From the NCBI GenBank assembly GCA_937976685.1, contig CALJWR010000090.1:1-36368 (forward strand): 36,368 nucleotides of DNA, read 5' to 3'. Below, in pieces: positions 3,001 through 32,359 of this stretch. A program made the translations under genes and the position numbers. The notes under the pieces were generated by a model. The model was not told the origin of the DNA. It searched no databases and saw nothing but the letters and a program-made list of their open reading frames with translations. The stretch comes from an uncultured Verrucomicrobiae bacterium. GTDB taxonomy: Bacteria > Verrucomicrobiota > Verrucomicrobiia > Limisphaerales > J093. Numbering within the stretch: the stretch's first letter is position 1; each line of letters begins with the position of its first letter.

Positions 3001-6000
3001 GGTCGGTGACCGTTCGTGAGTACCAGAACCTGCCGCCCCGTATCACTTCGTCGCCCGCGCTGATGGCGTCGCCCGGCGTCTTTTACTCCTACACCGTGAC
3101 GGCGGAGGATCCGAATCGTGACCCCATCACCTTCGCCCTCGCGGCGCAGCCGGCGGGGATGGCGGTCAATCCAAACAGCGGCGTGATTACGTGGGTGCCC
3201 ACGGCGGCGCAATTTGGCAGTCACCCGGTGACGGTGACCGCGTCCGATGGCAAGGGCGGCGCGGCCACGCAGCGCTTCGACGTGGTGGTGTTTGATGCTG
3301 CCACGGACGGACCGGTGGTTCGCCCGATCCCGGATCAGACCGTCATCGGCCCGGCGCCCTTTGTGGCCATCCCGCTCGACAACTACGTCTTCGATCCAAA
3401 CGACCCGACGGAGGCTCTGACTTGGTCGGTGACCGGGACCAGCCAGTTCACGGTCTCGATTGATGAGAACCGCGTCGCGACGGTGACCTATCCGGCCGGC
3501 ACCCTGGCCTCCGAGCGGCTGACCTTCCTGGCGACGGATCCGGCCGGGAAGTCCGGTTTCGCCGCCGCCACGTTCACCGTGCGCGGTCGGGACAACCCGC
3601 CCATCGCCGCGCTGGCGAATCTGTCCGACACCGAGACCACGCGGATTGAGACGGGATTCTTCGAGCTGCGCGGCACGGCGGACGATCCGGACGCAATTGA
3701 TCCGGTGGCATACCGGGTGACGCTGCACGACGAGAACGGCATGCAGGTGGCGGATGTCACGCCGAAGCCCGTGAACGCCTCGGGCTGGCGGGAAGGCCGC
3801 GTACCGCCGGGCGGAAGCCTCGGTACACTGGACCTTACCCTGGTGCGGAACGGCACCTACACCCTGAATCTGACCGTGCGGGGAGGTGGCCAAACGGTCG
3901 CCACCGCGGCCGAGATCGCTCTCGACACTTCGTTGAAGCTGGGACAGTTGACCTTCAGCGAGCAAGACGTCGTGCTGCCTCTGCGCGGCGTTGGATTGCG
4001 GGTGTTCCGGACCTACGACTCGTTGAACGCGACCGCGGCGGATTTCGGCTACTCGTGGAGCTACTCGGTTTATGACTTGGATGCCAAAATCAACGAACAG
4101 CGCGTGCGGGAGCAGGATCTGTTCGGTGAGTTCTTCAGTCTCCGCACAGGCGGGGGACGTGACGTTACGCTGGACATGCCCGACACCGGTCGGCGGGTGA
4201 CCTTCCGTTATTCGTTGCAACCGGGTGGCATGTTCCGGCTCCGAGCGGTCTGGACGGCGCCGCAGGGCGTCAACGCCACGCTGGTCCCGACCGTGTCGCC
4301 GAACATGGTCAAGCTGTTCAGTCTCCCCGCCTACTGGGAGGCGGCTGGACCTTATGTGGACGCCGACAATTTTGATTTCCCTGGCTTCATCCTGACGCTC
4401 CAGAACGGCACCCAATACCGCGTGGACCGCGAAGACCTGGGTGAGCGGATGATCACTGGGTCAGGCAGCGGATTGGGGAATTACGTTCACGCCTACGGCA
4501 AAGCTTTCCTCAGTCGGATCAGTGAGCCGGGCGGCGAACGGACTGACTTCGTCCGCGACGGGACGGCGCTGAAGAACATTGTCTCGTACGACAAGACGAG
4601 CGAACCGGCGGCGGGCATGTTGTTCCAACGGGACGCGCGGAACCGCATCCAGGCCATCTACACGCCGGAGGCTCTGAACGCCCAAGGTCTCCCTGTCGGA
4701 CCGCCGGCGGTGACTTACGAGTACGATGCCGCGGGCAATCTGATCAAGGTCAACAAGCTGACGGACGCCAGCGAGCCGGGGGCACCGGTCTATTCGACAA
4801 CCACCTATCGTTACGATCACCCCCGCTTCCCGCACTATTTGACCGAGGTTGTTGATCCACGAGGCGTTTCCGTTCTCAAATCGGAATTCGATGCCGCTGG
4901 CCGCCTGGTCGCGACCCGCGACGCGTTCGGTAATCGGACTTCGATCTCCCGGGACATTGCGGGCCGCACGGAGACCGTGTTTGATCAACTCGGCAATCCG
5001 ACGCAACTGACGTACGACGAGCGCGGCAACGTGGTGGCCCAGGTGGATGCCCTGGGGCGGACGACGCTGCGAACATTCGATGCAAGCAACCAGGTCCTGT
5101 CGGAGACGGACCCGCTCGGCAACACCACCCGGTTCACGTACGATGCCAGCGGCAACCGCACTTCCGTCACGGATCCGCTCGGTAACGTGACCCAGTTCCA
5201 GTTCGACGCCTCGGGCAATCCGGTGGCCGAGACCGATCCGTTGGGGCGCACCACGACCAACGAATTCGACCGCGAGGGGCGATACGTCGGCTCCACGGAT
5301 CCGCTGGGTAACCGGGTCACTGCTGCGTACGACGCGACCGGCCGCTCGATAACCATGAAGGACGCGACGGGCGCCACCGTGGGTCGCCTGGAGCGGGATG
5401 TCTCTGGCCGGTACACGTCTTTGGGCAGCGCGGGTTCGCCGCTGCAACTGGCGGGATTCGACTCGGCCGGCAACGCGACCAACACCGCGTATCAGTGGAT
5501 TAATCCCACCAACTTGGCGGACGTGCGCACGATTGCCACCACCCGGGTTTTCGACGCCAACGGCCAGGAGGTGCGCCGGATCCATCCCGACGGCCGCGAA
5601 AGCACCCTGGCCTACGACGCGTTGGGGCAGGTCGTGGCCGCGACCGATGTTCGCGGGAACACCACCCGCTACACCTACGACGCGGCCGGACGCCAGATCG
5701 AGACACGCTTCCCCGACGGCAACGTCGTGCGCACCGTTTATGACGCGGCGGGGCGGCCCGTGCTCGTCACGGAACGCCACGCACCCGGCACCCCCGCCAG
5801 TGCGACCCGCACCACCTACGACGCCGCAGGACGGGCCGGGGGCATCGAGTTGCTGAGCGATGTCATCGTTGAGATTGTCTCCCCAAGCGGGCTGACCCGT
5901 AGTGTGGTGACTGCCGGTGGCGCGGTGGTTGCCACCAACTGGGTTGCTTACGACGCGGCCGGGCGGATCACCAACCTCCTCAGTGAAGTCGGGGCTCGCG

Positions 6001-9000
6001 TCAGCTACGAGTATGACGCGGCCGGTCGAAAGATCGCGCAGGTGGACGCTCTGGGTAATCGCACCCGATTCGAGTACGACGCCGCCGGTCGCCTGACGGC
6101 GCTCCGGGCACCTTCGGGCGACGAGGCCCGCGTGCTGCATGACGCGCTGGGACGGGTGACGCGCACCGTCTTCTCTGACGGCACGTCCACGGAAATGAGC
6201 TACGACCCGGTTGGCAACATCGCTTCAGCGACCGATCCCGCCGGGCGCACTCGACGGTTCGAGTACGACGCGGCGCGCCGGATGACTGCCGCGGTCCTGC
6301 CGCCAGTGGTCAACCCGGAGAATGGCGGAGCCGTCGAGTCGCCGCGATTTGAATACACCTATGACCCCAACGGCAATCTGGCGGCCGTGCGGGATCCCAA
6401 AGGTCGGGTGACGGCGTTCACCTATGACATCTACAACCGTCCCAGTGCCAAGGTGATGCCCTTGGGGCAAACGCAGCAGTGGGTTCATTCGCCCGAAGGG
6501 CTCCTTCTGAGTCACAAGGATGCGGTCGGCCGGGTCCAGGAATTCAAGTACGACGCGCTTAATCGGATCACGAACAAGGTGATCCTTGCTTCCGGTTCAA
6601 TCGTGCCCCGTGAGGAGACCTATTTCCTCTACGACGCCCGGGGAAGACTGGCGCGAGTGGTGGAGAGTCGTGGTGCCACCGATTACGAGTATGATCTGAC
6701 TGGCAAACTGGCCGAGGTGGCTTCGCCCGAAGGCAAGATTCGCTATGAACACGATCCTATCACCGGTCGGCGTGCGCGCGTCTGGACCGACCATTCAGAC
6801 CTCCGCTACACCTACGACGCCGCCGGCCGGCTGCAGACCGTCACCGTGCTGAAGCGGCACGGCGAGGAACTGCCGGCGCCCGAGGTCACGCGCTTTACCT
6901 ACACGCCCAACGGTCAGAAGGAAACCGTGACCTTGCCGAACGGCATTCGCACGACTTACCGCTACGACTCGCTCAACCGGCTGATCTCGGTGGCACATAC
7001 CGGGCCAGCAGGGGGGCTGATCTCTGCGTTCAACTATCAGCTCGCGGCAGACGGGTTGCGGACGGGCGTTACCGAGGTCACGGCCGTGAATGGCGGCGGA
7101 TTCCGTACCAACCGGATTACCTATGCCTACGACGCCATCAAGCGGCTGATCCAAGAGCAGGCGGTGGATGTTGCCGATGGCACGGGCTACGCCGCCCACT
7201 ACACCTATGATCTCGCTGGCAATCGGCTGTCGCGAAGCGTCGCCGTCGGGACGCAAACGCTCTCGACCTTTTACGCCTACGATGAAAACGACCGCTTGTT
7301 GTGGGAGAGCAACGTTGTCTCCCGGGCGGGCGCGGGCGGAGCCGGGTTCTTGCGTGTACCGCCGCCCAGCCGCGGAGGAGCAAAGCTCGCCGCGCCGCCG
7401 CAGCCCGTTGCCTGGACATGGTACTTCATGGAGTCGCTGCCATATCTGCTTGCCCTCTCATGCCTGCTGCCGGTGGCGCTGATCCCCCGGCGGCTCTGGC
7501 GCCGGCTGCGGGTGTGGACCACCAGTTTGAGCCCGACCAACGCAGTCTTGCCGCGCTGCCTGGCGGGGGGCCTGGCAGCCCTAATGGCGCTGCTGCCTCT
7601 GGACCTGAACTCCATCGCCCAGCGAGCCGCTGCCTACGCGGCGCTCGATACGACAACGTGGGGGTTGGATGGGTCGGTCACGACTTACGACTACGACGCC
7701 AACGGGGCCGTGGTGCGGAAGACCACCACGGGACCGCGGGCCGAGGTGGTGGAATTCGAGTACGACCTCGCGGGTCGTCTGGTGGCCAGTACCACGACCC
7801 GGAACGACAGTGGGCGCGAAGTGATTGAAACGACTCGCCATACGCTCAACGCGCAGGGAGTGAGGGTTCGCACTGAAACGAGCACCTCGATTGACGGTCT
7901 GCCGGTGGGCACCACCACGAATGTCTTCATCGTGGACACGGTGAATCCAACCGGCGTTTCACAGGTGCTGGAGGAACTGCCAGCGGTGGGCGCAAAGCCG
8001 AGCGTCTCCTACGTACTCGGTGACGCACCGCTCGCGCAGACCCGCGACAACGGCGCTCTCACAACCCATTATCTCCTGCCAGATGGCCACGGTTCGACGA
8101 GGCAGGTGGCGGATGAGGCGGGGAGTGCCATTAGTTCTTTCGGCTATGACGCCTTTGGCATGATGCTGGGCGGTAACCCGACGTCCTCGAACCCCGCCAT
8201 GACAAAGGTTCTTCACACCGGCGAGATGTTCGATGCCGGGATTGGCCAGTACCATCTTCGCGCCCGCTCGTACGATCCGGGTACGGGTCGGTTCACGTCC
8301 GTGGATCCGGTGTTCGGCGAACTAAGTCTGCCGGAAACACTGCATCGCTACGTCTTCGGCGGGAACGACCCGGTGAACCAGATCGATCCCAGCGGTGAGT
8401 CGGTCATCATCAACATCGGAATTGCGGTCGCCATTTTCCTGGTCATCGGGGCTCTGATGTACGTCGGAAACCGTCCTTGGATTGGAATTGGGGGCGGCGA
8501 CTGGGAGGTGTTCAAGGCATGGCTGATTTATCCAGGTTGCCGGGCTTGGAGTCACGTTCTGTGGGGCAAGGAGCCCAAGGCGGCCAAGGAAACGGCCCGC
8601 CTCATGCGCCACTTCCAGGACTGGTACCGGGAAAACCAGTTTAAGATGCAGCACGTGATGGGTGGCGGACTGTATTTCTGGGCCCCGTGGGCGTGTGTGG
8701 ACCATGCGGTTCAGTTTGCCACTTACATCCGAAGCAAACGGAACGAGGATCCGAATGTGCCGTTGCTGACCTACTACCGGGTGCATTTCATGGGGCATGG
8801 AGAGGCCAGCATCGAATACGGCTTGTTGGGGTTGGTGCCGATTGTCGGTGACTTCCTGCCCGGCGAAAAGGGGGCGAAGCATACCTTCCTGATCGCTCGC
8901 AAGCGAGGTCTAGCCGCCAACAGTTCGGATGACATTGGCATCAACTTCGACAGTTGGTGGTACTACACCTACGCTCCCAACATGCCGACTTTTTACGGCG

Positions 9001-28018: not shown

Positions 28019-28156
28019 CTAAACCGGATATTTCATGGCCATGGTAGCAGCCGCCGTGAGGCGGCGTTCCGAGCGGCGTGGGCGCGCCTCCGCCGGCTCA
28101 TGCCGGCCGCCACAGTCTGCGCGCGTTTCCCGCGAACTGTGAAATACCCGGGTTAG
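28019..28156. mobile_element. MITE-like element with 17-bp terminal inverted repeats
   Basis: The ends CTAAACCGGATATTTCA (28019-28035) and, inverted, CTAACCCGGGTATTTCA (28140-28156) match at 15 of 17 positions. The 138-bp interior has no reading frame but two perfect hairpins: GCCGCC-GTGA-GGCGGC (28050-28065) and GCCGGC-TCAT-GCCGGC (28092-28107). The right end overlaps the HAD gene and provides its TAA stop codon. No clear target-site duplication is seen. It is probably a non-autonomous element or an extragenic palindromic repeat family; no cognate transposase is in the window. Confidence 0.65.
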
Positions 28157-28869
28157 CCGAGCACCACCGCAAGCAAACGGTCCCAGTCGCTCCCCTCGGT
28201 ATCGGGTGTCGTGGTGCCGACTTGAAACGTCTGCCAACCGTGCCGCTGCGCGGGTTCCAGGTCGTTATCGAGCCGGTCGCCCACCATCAGCATTTCCCCG
28301 GGACCGATGCCCATCGCCTCGCAACGCGCGGTGAGGATCCGGAACACGTGTGGGTCAGGTTTGCTGAAACCGTGTTCAAACGACCAGAAGCAAAGGGCGG
28401 ATTCGAAGACATCCATCGCCATCTGCTGGGAGGCCAAACCTTCGCGCAGTTCCCGCAAACTGTACGCTTGCGCGTTGGACGCGATCCCGAGGCGGCAGCC
28501 CGCCCGGTGCAGGGTCCCAAGCGCCGCTGCGGCTTTCGCCGACATCGCGGTCGTGCGGCCGGTCTGGGTTTGGCGATAGACGAACTCCGCCCGTAACTCC
28601 GGCCAAAGCTTCGGGAACGCAGGCAGAATCTCGGCGACCACCGTCGGCCACTGAACTTCCGGGAATGGAATGCCTGCCGCTCGGGCCGCCTCGTGGTGGC
28701 GGACGACCGCGCGACCGCAAGCAACGGAAAAGTCCAGCCGGCTGAAGGGCGGCTCGCTGCCGAAAAGCTCCCGAAACAGAGCGCTCCACCGGACGTCCGC
28801 ATCGGGCGGCGGCGGACCGACCTTCAGCAGCGTGTTGTACAGGTCAAAGATGACGGCGCGAGTCTTCAT
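28153..28869 (-). CDS. HAD-superfamily hydrolase, candidate phosphoglycerate-glycoside phosphatase
   Basis: 238 residues. The ATG at 28869 overlaps the TGA of the GT4 gene (ATGA), which decides this start over a GTG at 28884. HAD motifs: motif I IFDLYNTLL with nucleophile Asp9, motif II IASNAQ, motif III Lys in FSKPDPHVF, motif IV MVGDRLDNDL, and a helical cap after motif I. The residue two after the nucleophile is Tyr11 instead of the usual acid Asp, as in haloacid dehalogenases; this weakens a phosphatase call. Next to GT4 and GT81 genes, its likely job is removing the 3-phosphate from glucosyl-3-phosphoglycerate (GpgP-like), an inference from context. The stop codon lies inside the inverted repeat of the MITE-like element. 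Confidence 0.85.
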   Translation of the reverse strand: MKTRAVIFDLYNTLLKVGPPPPDADVRWSALFRELFGSEPPFSRLDFSVACGRAVVRHHEAARAAGIPFPEVQWPTVVAEILPAFPKLWPELRAEFVYRQTQTGRTTAMSAKAAAALGTLHRAGCRLGIASNAQAYSLRELREGLASQQMAMDVFESALCFWSFEHGFSKPDPHVFRILTARCEAMGIGPGEMLMVGDRLDNDLEPAQRHGWQTFQVGTTTPDTEGSDWDRLLAVVLG

Positions 28870-30428
28870 GTGTCCGGGTGCCACAGGAGGGGGAAAAGGT
28901 TATCGCCCGTGAGCTTGGCCGCCAGCAGTTCCCGCTGAACGCGGGTTGAGTCCACCAGCTTGGGCACGGCGTATGGTGCCAAAGGCGCCAGCTCAAAAAA
29001 CCGACGAGCGTAGGCGCGCCCGCCCAGCCACCGGGCGGCCGTCCGGGGCCAGGGAGTCAGCCGGAGTTTCCCGGCAGCGGCCCATTCCCGCCAGGCAACG
29101 AGAAACAGGTTGAGCGGCCTGCATTTCGCCCAGGATTCGGCGGCGGGCTGGGCAAGAACCTCGAGCTGCGCCGTCAGGGTCAGACGGCTGAACGGAATTG
29201 GTTTGGGCGCACTTCCCGCCGCCAGCAAGGCCGGCCGCGGCACCTCCCGTTGCACGGCCCGGGGCATCTGGGACCGCCACGCCTTGAACAGTCGCTCCTG
29301 CCGGCGCCTCTCTGCGGGCCAGTCAAACAACTCGGGCGCGATCAGGATCTCCGCGTAGCTCTGAGGAAACGAAAATCCGAACTTGGCGAGGTCGGGCGCC
29401 ACGTTGGGAAGCTGGCGCGCAAGCAGCGGACGGTGAGCCGCCGAAGCCTCGAGGTACGGCAGTCCAAATCCCTCCTGAACCGAGGTCAGCAATACCGCCT
29501 CGCTGGCTGCCAGCAACTCGGGCACAGTCGGCTGCTGCCGCTCTTCGCGTTCCAAGACGGCCAGTCGGAGCCGCCAGCCCTGGGTCCGGGCCGCGTGCTT
29601 GAGGGCGGCGGCATAGGGCGCCTCCGGCGGCGAGCTGACCCCCGCCGTCGTCACCAGCCACGCTTCGGGCCGCAACCAGCGGGTCAGCAGGAGCGCCTCG
29701 GCGATGTTCTTGCGCCGGAGCAGCCGGCAGGGAAGCAGCCAGACCGGCGCATCGTCCCGCAATTCCTTGCACAACCAGTCCCGCGCGGCTTGCTCGCGCT
29801 CGCGGGACACCGGAGGCCACGGCGCCACCGGATTCGGCAACCACCCGGCGCGGGGACCGAAGTGGCGTTGAAGGAGGCGGGCGTCGCTTTCGTTGATCGC
29901 GGCATGCGCAATCCACGGCGACGCGGGGAGCACGGCGCGGGCCAGCCCGGCAAGCGTCCGGCCGCCGGCCTCCCGGATTCCGGCGTACTGGGGCCAACGA
30001 TTGTCGAACCACCAGTCGTGGTGATGCAGGATCAACGGGATGTTCCCCGCGTGGCACAGCCGGCCGAGTTCACGCGCGAGCCGCACATTCCGCCCGAGAC
30101 CCAAGTTGTGCGCCCAGACTAGTGGGGCATCGCCGCAAAGGTGCAACAAGTGGGTCAATCCGCGCCGGATCGCAGCCGATGAATTCCCTTGCGAACCGGG
30201 CGCCTCGGACGAATAGCCGAAGGAGGAGTGGACGAAGGTCTCGACTTCCGCACCGGACACCGTCCGCGCGATCCCTCGAAGCCAGTTCTCATCGGGAGCC
30301 TCCCCCGCGGCAAGAACGACGCGGGGGATTTGTTTCGGCGCGTGGGCGACCAGTTGCGGCAGGGCCAGTTCGATGACTCGCCGGACGCCGCCGGGGCGGA
30401 AGTGGTGATGCAAAGCCGCCAGGATCAC
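28866..30428 (-). CDS. GT4-family glycosyltransferase, candidate mannosylglucosylglycerate synthase
   Basis: 520 residues from a GTG at 30428; the conserved start ALHHHFRPGGVRRVIELALP follows at once, so no later start fits. GT-B features: the N-terminal Gly-rich loop PGGVRR, acceptor-domain segment LILHHHDWWFDNRWPQY, the sugar-nucleotide domain WLLPCRLLRRKNIAEALLL, and the GT4 E-x7-E motif in QEGFGLPYLEASA (about residues 317-328). A C-terminal extension of about 130 residues beyond the usual GT4 length is rich in Arg, Pro and Leu and has no recognised domain. GT4 enzymes with this N-terminus include mannosylglucosylglycerate synthases, which use GDP-mannose and glucosylglycerate. That specificity is inferred from the HAD and GT81 neighbours, not shown by residues. 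It overlaps the HAD gene by 4 bp. Confidence 0.85.
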   Translation of the reverse strand: MILAALHHHFRPGGVRRVIELALPQLVAHAPKQIPRVVLAAGEAPDENWLRGIARTVSGAEVETFVHSSFGYSSEAPGSQGNSSAAIRRGLTHLLHLCGDAPLVWAHNLGLGRNVRLARELGRLCHAGNIPLILHHHDWWFDNRWPQYAGIREAGGRTLAGLARAVLPASPWIAHAAINESDARLLQRHFGPRAGWLPNPVAPWPPVSREREQAARDWLCKELRDDAPVWLLPCRLLRRKNIAEALLLTRWLRPEAWLVTTAGVSSPPEAPYAAALKHAARTQGWRLRLAVLEREERQQPTVPELLAASEAVLLTSVQEGFGLPYLEASAAHRPLLARQLPNVAPDLAKFGFSFPQSYAEILIAPELFDWPAERRRQERLFKAWRSQMPRAVQREVPRPALLAAGSAPKPIPFSRLTLTAQLEVLAQPAAESWAKCRPLNLFLVAWREWAAAGKLRLTPWPRTAARWLGGRAYARRFFELAPLAPYAVPKLVDSTRVQRELLAAKLTGDNLFPLLWHPDT

Positions 30429-30532
30429 AGCGCGGAGGCTAGTCCGGCCCCCGGCGGGAAGCGAAGCTTTCCTCGTTTCCTAAACCCGTCGCACGTTTCC
30501 GTTGACCAGCCGGTGGCCGGGTGATTACTTGA

Positions 30533-30737
30533 CTTGCGGGTTTCCGGTGAAATCCCGCAAGGGTCTGAGGCGTGGAACCTCAGAGGTCCGTCAGGATGGT
30601 CGGGCCGCCATCCGCTGGACCGTGTCATCCGGTGCATCGCGGACTCGCGATGCGGCGGCGACGCGGGCGTCGGCGGCGCAGAAACTGTGCGAACCTCAGC
30701 CCCCGCGTTCCGCGACGCCGTCAGCCGCATCGGGCTG
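30533..30737 (+). ncRNA. Highly structured segment, candidate 5' leader / regulatory RNA upstream of the GT81 operon
   Basis: Consecutive hairpins fill this stretch. H1: 30533-30544 with 30549-30561, 12 bp with one bulged T and a CGGT loop. H2: 30564-30570 with 30578-30584, 7 perfect bp. H3: GGTCC/GGACC (30585-30589, 30617-30621) enclosing GGATGG/CCATCC (30594-30599, 30608-30613). H4: GCATCGCG-GACT-CGCGATGC, 8 perfect bp at 30634-30653. H5: GGCGTCG/CGACGCC (30666-30672, 30713-30719) enclosing GCGCAG-AAA-CTGTGC. H6: CAGCC/GGCTG (30722-30737). It has no protein-like frame and ends 37 bp before the ATG at 30775. It matches no riboswitch, tRNA, tmRNA, RNase P or SRP RNA consensus I know. Strand is ambiguous because hairpins are symmetric; plus is assumed from the downstream genes. 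Confidence 0.5.
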
Positions 30738-30774
30738 CAAAGCAAGGGCGACACACAATCGAACCCTGCGAGTC

Positions 30775-31155
30775 ATGCAAAGGGCCCATTATGTGCAACT
30801 GATTATGTTCGGCATCGCCGTCCCACTTCTGGCTTATTTCACGCGCCACTTCTCACCGGGAGCGGGGAACACCGTGTATCTGGTCGGGTTCGTTGGCGGT
30901 GGCCTCTGTTTCGTCTGGGGAGTGCTGGGGCTGATCGGTTTCCGGCGGGCCTGGCCGGCGATGGTCACCCTGCTGCTGACCGCCTTCGGGACGCTGCCGC
31001 CCGCCGCCCGCCTGTGGTTGGGGGACGATCCCGCCGCGAGCGACCGTCGGTGGGCGGCGCTGCTGGCAACGGGCATCCTCGCGTTGGCGGTCGGCCTGAT
31101 CGCGCAGATTTCGCATTCCGTACAAGGAACCTTCGCCCGCTCCACGAATGTCTGA
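30775..31155 (+). CDS. Small four-helix integral membrane protein of unknown function
   Basis: 126 residues from the ATG at 30775; the frame upstream to 30502 runs through the structured segment and is not protein-like. Four hydrophobic helices are seen: VQLIMFGIAVPLLAYF, TVYLVGFVGGGLCFVWGVLG, AWPAMVTLLLTAFGTLPPAA and AALLATGILALAVGLIAQIS. No family is recognised. Its last 8 bp overlap the GT81 gene start (ATGTCTGA), so the two are surely co-transcribed and probably translationally coupled. A role with the glycosyltransferase, for example in membrane association or osmotic sensing, is only a guess from this arrangement. No Shine-Dalgarno sequence is visible before the ATG. Confidence 0.75.
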   Translation: MQRAHYVQLIMFGIAVPLLAYFTRHFSPGAGNTVYLVGFVGGGLCFVWGVLGLIGFRRAWPAMVTLLLTAFGTLPPAARLWLGDDPAASDRRWAALLATGILALAVGLIAQISHSVQGTFARSTNV

Positions 31156-32359
31156 CTTCTTCCAAACCGGCGCGGTGGCCACGCTGCATCGGCTGGGTAC
31201 TTCCGGCATCCCCCGCATGGAGCGTGAGTTGGTGGAATTCGGAAAGGAATGTCCAGTCGCGCTGGTGTTGCCCTGTCACGTTCGCGAGCTCGGTTCCAAG
31301 GCTCTGCTCAGCATCGTGCGCTGTCTGAAGTCGGTGCCCTACCTGGCGCAAGTGGTCGTGGGCGTGGACGGCGCGACGCGGCGCAGCGATTTTGATCGGG
31401 CCCGCCGCATTTTCCGCCAGCTCCCTCAACCTACCAGCCTGCTCTGGAACGACGGTCCGCGGATGCGCGCGCTCTTCGCGCACCTCGCCGAATCGGACCT
31501 CGGCGCCGGCCCCGGCGGCAAGGGCCGCAACGTGTGGATTTGCTTCGGCTACGTGCTGGCCAGCGACACGGCCCGCATGGTGGCGGTGCATGATTGCGAC
31601 ATCGCCACCTACTCGCGGGAGTTGCTGGCGCGACTGGTCTATCCTGTGGCGCATCCGAGCTTGGGGTTTGATTTCTGCAAAGGTTATTACGCCCGGGTGA
31701 CCGACCGCCTCAATGGCCGCGTCATGCGCCTGCTGGTGACGCCCCTGCTGCGGGCGCTCAAGAGTATCATCGGCCACCATCCGTACCTCGTGTATATGGA
31801 CACGTTCCGTTACCCGCTGGCCGGCGAGTTCGCGATGGATCTGGACCTGGTGCGGCGCGTCCGCATTCCCCATGACTGGGCGCTCGAGGTGGGATTGCTC
31901 TCGGAGGTGTTCCGCAACTGCGCGCCCCGCGCCATCTGCCAGAGCGAGCTGTGCGAGAACTATGAGCACAAGCACCAGGAGATCTCGCCACGCGATCCGG
32001 ACAAGGGTCTGAACAAGATGGCCACCGACATCGCCAAGACGGTCTTCCGTCGCATGGCGGCCGAGGGCATCCGGCTGGACTCCGGCTTGTTTGACACCCT
32101 ACTCAGTGCCTACAGCCGCCAGGCGGAGGACACCCTGCGATTCTACAACGCCGACTCCGTCATCAACGGGCTGCGGTATCCGCGCCATGAGGAGGAAAGC
32201 GCCGTGTCCACGTTCGTGCGCAGCATCCGCCGGGCCGCCCGCGACTTTCAGGACGACCCCCTGTGGTCACCGCTGATCTCAAATTGGAACCGGGTCCAGT
32301 CCGCGTTGCCCGATTTCGGTCGCGAACTCCACAAAGCCGTCGCGCAGGATAACGCGTGA
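31148..32359 (+). CDS. GT81-family glycosyltransferase, glucosyl-3-phosphoglycerate synthase-like (GpgS)
   Basis: 403 residues, ATG at 31148 inside the end of the membrane-protein gene. GT-A features in GpgS order: VALVLPCHV for nucleotide binding, then GGKGRNVWICFGYVL (Lys125, the PGKG-like loop). Next is the metal-binding DxD in VAVHDCDIATY (Asp149, Asp151), then FDFCKGYYARV followed by GRVMRLLVTPLLRAL, and the GT81-diagnostic YPLAGEFAMDLDL. Then come HDWALEVGLLSEVF (near residue 247) and the late histidine region NYEHKHQ (His274, His276). GpgS transfers glucose from an NDP-glucose to 3-phosphoglycerate, the first step to the compatible solutes glucosylglycerate and mannosylglucosylglycerate. 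It is longer than the actinobacterial GpgS (about 320 residues) by N- and C-terminal extensions. GT4 and HAD genes stand divergently beside it. Confidence 0.85.
   Translation: MSDFFQTGAVATLHRLGTSGIPRMERELVEFGKECPVALVLPCHVRELGSKALLSIVRCLKSVPYLAQVVVGVDGATRRSDFDRARRIFRQLPQPTSLLWNDGPRMRALFAHLAESDLGAGPGGKGRNVWICFGYVLASDTARMVAVHDCDIATYSRELLARLVYPVAHPSLGFDFCKGYYARVTDRLNGRVMRLLVTPLLRALKSIIGHHPYLVYMDTFRYPLAGEFAMDLDLVRRVRIPHDWALEVGLLSEVFRNCAPRAICQSELCENYEHKHQEISPRDPDKGLNKMATDIAKTVFRRMAAEGIRLDSGLFDTLLSAYSRQAEDTLRFYNADSVINGLRYPRHEEESAVSTFVRSIRRAARDFQDDPLWSPLISNWNRVQSALPDFGRELHKAVAQDNA

Follow-up and report, generated by a model that had tools for sequence, protein, structure and literature searches.

The window, the whole stretch of 36,368 nucleotides that was analysed, comes from an uncultured Verrucomicrobiae bacterium and carries the following features on and around one intergenic region:

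28153-28884, minus strand: HAD-family phosphatase gene adjoining the GT4 gene (PF00702, 51.3 bits; neighbour conserved in relatives)
28866-30428, minus strand: divergent GT4 glycosyltransferase gene (PF00534, 27.4 bits, just above the cut-off; neighbour conserved in relatives)
30502-30529, plus strand: promoter-like pair TTGACC-16-ATTACT (8/12 matches, weak; below the scan threshold)
30533-30560, plus strand: 5' hairpin adjoining the aptamer (fold; an upstream hairpin recurs in relatives)
30561-30613, plus strand: predicted nhaA-I family riboswitch aptamer (Rfam RF03057, covariation in 71 sequences)
30565-30583, plus strand: aptamer stem P1, lower pairs CU/AG, of the YC/GR type (alignment, covariation)
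30594-30613, plus strand: aptamer stem P2, loop CGGGCC (alignment, covariation)
30614-30774, plus strand: 161-nt leader following the aptamer (within the usual length of MEM leaders, sequence not conserved)
30634-30653, plus strand: perfect 8-bp hairpin whose 3' arm contains an AUG at 30650-30652 (sequence, fold)
30650-30802, plus strand: speculative 50-aa arginine-rich leader ORF overlapping the start of MEM (open frame)
30775-31155, plus strand: small membrane protein MEM, 126 aa, unnamed family (homologues after the same RNA)
31148-32359, plus strand: GpgS-like glucosyl-3-phosphoglycerate synthase, 403 aa (NF040724)

MEM matched no Pfam or NCBIfam family at E 0.001. Its gene overlaps gpgS by 8 nt, and the gpgS frame is intact. 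The GpgS-like protein aligned over its full length to NF040724 with 314.5 bits, which is below the curated equivalog cut-off of 700, so the product of this enzyme is not certain. Judging from the names of the gene families, the pathway may lead to glucosylglycerate or a further glycosylated derivative. The aptamer lies 5' of the MEM-gpgS pair and on the same strand, between this pair and the divergent GT4-HAD genes, in the intergenic region where the first-pass annotation had placed a candidate structured RNA.

A scan of the whole window against Rfam returned a single match above the cut-off, nhaA-I (RF03057), at 30561-30613 on the plus strand, with 46.5 bits (gathering score 37) and with model positions 1-55, i.e., the whole model, covered. 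The window RNA retains the GGGU, the AGG linker, P1, P2, and the P2 loop of RF03057, and the aptamer positions that are conserved in the alignment are kept; its score falls in the lower part of the match list of its order. We built an alignment (A1) of 71 RNAs, consisting of the window, 69 others of its order, and one of the same class, without the weak order matches G470 and G727 and without G564. Across P1 (columns 5-12/21-28) and P2 (columns 40-46/53-59), 96.7% of cells held standard pairs, compared to 80.4% in shuffled sequences and 32-60% with slid partners, and changes on both sides were found at 12 of the 15 pairs. Given this covariation and pairing above the controls, the hairpins 30565-30583 and 30594-30613 represent stems P1 and P2 of a genuine RNA, and we regard the assignment of 30561-30613 to the nhaA-I family as almost certain. 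The comparison of homologues that had been proposed as a check thus came out strongly in favor of a structured RNA. The class, however, is already known, and the match to RF03057 overturns the earlier view that the stretch fits no known class and rules out a new one; what is novel is the genomic setting. A dispersed repeat, which had been deemed less likely from the start, was also ruled out: nhaA-I occurs in one copy in the assembly, and no repeat family of the window covers the aptamer. One chance-like 34-nt repeat pair touches 30721-30754.

The plus strand of 30533-30737 folds into consecutive hairpins (30533-30560, 30565-30583, 30594-30613, 30634-30653, then weaker stems as far as 30737), much as the six described in the first-pass annotation, of which two correspond to P1 and P2. 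They do not form one conserved unit, and to judge from the alignment the conserved RNA is 30561-30613 only. The fold of the plus strand was moderately better than that of dinucleotide shuffles (z -2.92, with 3/200 shuffles equally good), while the minus strand folded better (z -5.63), so folding energy alone cannot assign the strand. A minus-strand element, although favored by energy, was rejected; the Rfam match and the covariation both lie on the plus strand, which is therefore the strand assigned. This agrees with the earlier proposal of a structured leader on the strand of the MEM-gpgS (GT81-type) pair.

The surroundings of the aptamer were compared for 74 RNAs (73 matches in the order plus G411 of the same class), with counts made on 72 of them; G470 (34.6 bits) and G727 (29.2 bits) were dropped as weak and without the P1 signature described below. 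A strong hairpin within 40 nt upstream of the aptamer was found in 40/72 relatives, compared to 8/71 in a control stretch. The position of this hairpin recurs without a common sequence, and the one at 30533-30560 is of the same kind. The dinucleotide AA stands directly before the aptamer in 65/72. Promoter-like pairs with at least 9/12 matches were present upstream in 22/72 relatives against a shuffled mean of 3.65; in the window, TTGACC-16-ATTACT ends about 31 nt before the aptamer, and a scan of 30420-30900 gave no terminator-like and no promoter-like site over the threshold. For the hairpins 3' of 30613, a conserved counterpart was sought in the relatives and none was found. The leaders between aptamer and MEM homologues measure 140-179 nt in five relatives; because homologues begin 141-180 nt past the aptamer, an N-terminal extension of MEM back to GTG 30622 was rejected.

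Within the phylum of the window, nhaA-I was detected in 15 of 387 genomes drawn, and within its order in 47 of 320 genomes, with 73 matches. The corresponding numbers were 34/326 genomes for the phylum of a Desulfobacteraceae record (taken as Desulfobacterota) and 12/284 for that of a Planctomycetales record (taken as Planctomycetota). In the order, gpgS was present in 51 of the 320 genomes (61 rows), and 27 genomes had both the RNA and gpgS (47 with the RNA, 51 with gpgS; kinship is ignored in this count). The RNA lay on the same strand no more than 3 kb upstream of gpgS in 22 rows from 20 of the 51 gpgS-bearing genomes, and no more than 1 kb upstream in 20 rows from 19 of them; in the other 31, no nhaA-I was found within 3 kb upstream of gpgS. 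The arrangement also occurs outside the phylum, at one Desulfobacterota locus (L259; gpgS 50% identity) and one Planctomycetota locus (L299; 52% identity). In our estimate, the RNA very probably regulates the MEM-gpgS operon. A link of nhaA-I to gpgS and osmolytes was not described in the titles and abstract openings that were found; a supplementary table may already contain the association.

ORFs around the 74 RNAs were clustered and the clusters named by a Pfam/NCBIfam scan of one representative each. A script with preset gap lengths delimited the co-directional gene run after each RNA and may have misjudged individual operons; the counts describe RNA loci only. Osmolyte-synthesis genes followed 39/72 RNAs; these encode GpgS, a GT2-HAD fusion with a GpgS-like half, and a bifunctional trehalose-phosphate synthase/phosphatase, together with a sucrose-phosphate-synthase-like protein, a sucrose phosphatase, and a sucrose-phosphorylase-like GH13 protein. 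Genes for Na_H_antiport_3, CitMHS_2, Na_Ca_ex, or MscS followed 20/72, and the MEM family followed 23/72. At least one gene from the osmolyte, ion-transport/MscS, or MEM groups came after 57/72 RNAs; the remaining 15 precede none of the named genes, and 4 of these have no gene call or reach the contig end. At one locus outside the order (L026), the genes after the RNA are presumably trehalose genes, going by their sequence motifs. Two of the 15 RNAs, in two genomes, are followed by an APS-kinase-like gene (L114:1937-2500:+ and its counterpart in L111). Genes of osmotic stress, including trehalose-6-phosphate synthase, have been described near nhaA-I RNAs before, some of these RNAs in tandem, in a study whose passages leave the ligand of these RNAs open (PMC9646797).

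That study left undecided whether Li+ or Na+ is the ion sensed by the nhaA-I RNAs next to osmotic-stress genes (PMC9646797), and the present locus and its relatives offer a direct test of this. According to passages of the same study, the family consists of Li+-I riboswitches and, rarely, of Na+-II variants, and it turns genes on. Terminator-bearing variants are confined there to Deltaproteobacteria, and the one tested binds Na+; this Na+-II RNA, from D. propionicus, has C at position 54, where most members have U (PMC9646797). The window RNA differs from the Rfam consensus at the base of P1, where it reads GGGUCU...AGAGGU as against GGGUGC...GCAGGU (CU/AG in place of GC/GC), and the RNAs of the order are of the type GGGU-YC...GRAGG. 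A pyrimidine occupies position 5, at the base of P1, in 72/72 RNAs of the order and in 29/30 Desulfobacterota RNAs (30 scored of 55 matches listed); G occupies it in 14/15 Planctomycetota RNAs and in 16/19 other RNAs of the window's phylum. The Desulfobacterota RNAs that carry the pyrimidine signature are nearly all followed by a terminator. The YC/GRAGG base of P1 is common to the window and to 29/30 RNAs of the group, D. propionicus itself being compared by description. Unlike Na+-II, the window RNA has U, at U30600, in the presumed specificity position (the mapping to position 54 is inferred) and has no terminator. From the regulon and the shared signature at the lower end of P1, Na+ appears the likelier ligand, although Li+ may be sensed instead and a mixed response can be envisaged, and we favor Na+ as the main ligand of the window RNA with some confidence, in part by analogy to the Desulfobacterota RNAs.

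The strongest competitor, which we nevertheless consider unlikely, is a Li+-I riboswitch proper, in which Li+ would be sensed and gpgS induced during Li+ toxicity or an accompanying salinity response. Its appeal lies in the published family, whose tested members mostly prefer Li+ (PMC9646797), and in the U that the window has where the Na+ variant has C, by the inferred mapping. The RNA is over the cut-off of RF03057, keeps the core motifs P1, P2, and the loop, and sits in the predicted 5' leader of a gene pair, as Li+-I RNAs do. Some RNAs of the order also precede Na_H_antiport_3, which is listed under NhaA in the study, and two precede the APS-kinase-like gene, which could fit Li+ as well because sulfur metabolism is tied to Li+ toxicity (PMC9646797). 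However, the regulon consists mostly of osmolyte synthesis, MscS, and antiporters, which suits Na+ better, and the base of P1 in the window deviates from the Li+-I consensus. Compared to the published nhaA-I RNAs, the RNA of the window stands before MEM-gpgS rather than nhaA, and its host is a member of the Verrucomicrobiota, whereas the hosts named in passages of PMC9646797 are Alpha-, Beta-, Gamma-, and Deltaproteobacteria. A predicted leader position before cation-transport or osmotic-stress genes is what we found, with the RNA on the strand of MEM-gpgS here and relatives also before antiporters.

Slightly less probable still is a poorly selective leader that would respond to Li+, Na+, and NH4+ alike and so act as a general sensor of ionic strength. 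Such a response was reported for the C54U mutant of the Na+-II RNA (PMC9646797), and the window joins the shared P1 signature with a U. This, though, is the behavior of one mutant RNA and of no natural member, and U30600 is the presumed equivalent of position 54. One RNA of the order before gpgS, at L134:1931-1984:+ (GGCCGGGCC), has C at the presumed specificity position, and the same genome holds another gpgS with a U-type RNA. When C-variants were searched for in the genome collection with a loose pattern (at least 80 loci), model R1 had no convincing member among the matches listed (best E 0.00036), and the 14 genomes behind the C-variant loci listed contained no nhaA-I.

The DUF1646 motif (Na+-I) has an overall plan similar to nhaA-I (PMC9646797) and is likewise linked to osmotic-stress genes (PMC9337991), but its Rfam model was absent from the 7 window matches at E up to 5.

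We then considered how binding could be converted into gene control. The window contains no terminator (30420-30900) and no stretch complementary to the 3' strand of P2 (anti-P2; z 0.09). Downstream stretches of the Desulfobacterota RNAs are strongly complementary to this strand (mean z -3.04, n = 30). In the order, z was below -2 for 5/72 RNAs compared to 8/72 with the reversed-query control, so anti-P2 stretches are not above the control for the order as a whole. Four loci (L071, L091, L096, and L125) have an anti-P2 stretch just after the aptamer, some with a T-run behind it, similar to the Desulfobacterota terminators. Sequestration of the Shine-Dalgarno sequence by the 3' strand of P2 was suggestive for RNAs from other parts of the phylum (mean z -0.83, 8/15 below -1) and weak for gpgS-first (-0.58, 5/14) and MEM-first loci (-0.44, 2/9), sets to which the window does not belong.

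In 22 relatives, including many MEM-first leaders, a further hairpin, P3, lies directly 3' of P2 (alignment A2; e.g., L135:2005-2049:+, L074:3782-3826:+, and L080:7325-7369:-, plus 19 more loci). In P3, 89.2% of cells were paired compared to 26-42% in slid controls, with double changes at 8/12 pairs, figures that come from the same sequences on which P3 was chosen. The covarying outer stem overlaps the 3' strand of P2; since the base of P3 uses the last nucleotides of P2, the two should compete. At many P3 loci an ATG follows about 25 nt after the aptamer, within the 3' arm of P3. The P3 model (R2) found its 22 training sites, five reverse-strand overlaps, and two weak others (L105 and L090). 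P3 is possibly an undescribed expression platform. It was not found in the window, where the best match to the P3 model reached 8.4 bits; even with this score, the hairpin 30634-30653, whose 3' arm likewise contains an AUG, is a possible counterpart.

Taken together, the reading that we prefer, and think probable, is an ON-type nhaA-I riboswitch for alkali cations that senses Na+ in the leader of the MEM-gpgS operon. When intracellular Na+ rises under salt stress, the ion would bind a pocket to which the loop of P2 and the bottom of P1 (GGGU...AGG) contribute, and stabilize the fold. The bound aptamer would then turn the operon on, a direction borrowed from the published family, and the cell would make a compatible solute, either glucosylglycerate or a product glycosylated further with the help of the divergent GT4 and HAD proteins. 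Since the window shows no terminator, the switch most likely acts on translation initiation, perhaps at the AUG-bearing hairpin 30634-30653. The osmolyte-sensing leader suggested in the first-pass annotation survives here as a plausible role in osmotic stress, while none of the ligands it named corresponds to the published Li+ or, in variants, Na+. That the aptamer has decayed or fallen out of use, so that it can be recognised but has ceased to regulate its operon, we think very unlikely: the window lacks a recognised platform and its aptamer scores low for its order, but the conserved aptamer positions and the gpgS frame are intact and many relatives have no recognisable platform either.

On a wider scale, this clade combines a consistent change in the lowest part of P1 with placement of the RNA before mechanosensitive channels, Na+/H+ antiporters, and the genes of three osmolyte pathways. 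It is tempting, although somewhat short of an even chance in our estimate, to see the YC/GRAGG RNAs as a Na+-sensing subclass of nhaA-I with a genome-wide salt-stress regulon of glucosylglycerate, trehalose, and sucrose synthesis, MscS, Na+/H+ antiporters, and the MEM family. Part of this subclass would use P3, a conserved added hairpin that shares nucleotides with P2 and holds a start codon, as a translational platform. If Na+ is bound, the RNA would be a main sodium sensor of osmoadaptation in the group, for which none was named in the literature searched. In Rhodopirellula baltica, sucrose, trehalose, and mannosylglucosylglycerate are salt-dependent (PMC3694870); these solute types match those whose genes follow these nhaA-I RNAs, although the species belongs to another phylum, and the passages of that source on its solute pool name no RNA regulator.

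Close same-strand pairs or triplets of nhaA-I were seen in several genomes (L102:5111-5163:- with 4824-4876:-; G943, G936, G972, G1163, G873, and G1153), and a tandem arrangement has been reported for environmental sequences (PMC9646797). At loci beyond the order, a small membrane protein often comes after the RNA (L002, L004, L005, L008, L013, L290, L293, L300, and L261); it measures about 115 aa, begins with a GCL-R-WM--GN-like sequence, and is apparently unlike the MEM of the window. A scan of viral contigs gave one locus. Elsewhere in the window, at 4880-7786, repeats of 27-33 nt read as YDAAGR-like units, which suggest an RHS/YD-repeat protein.
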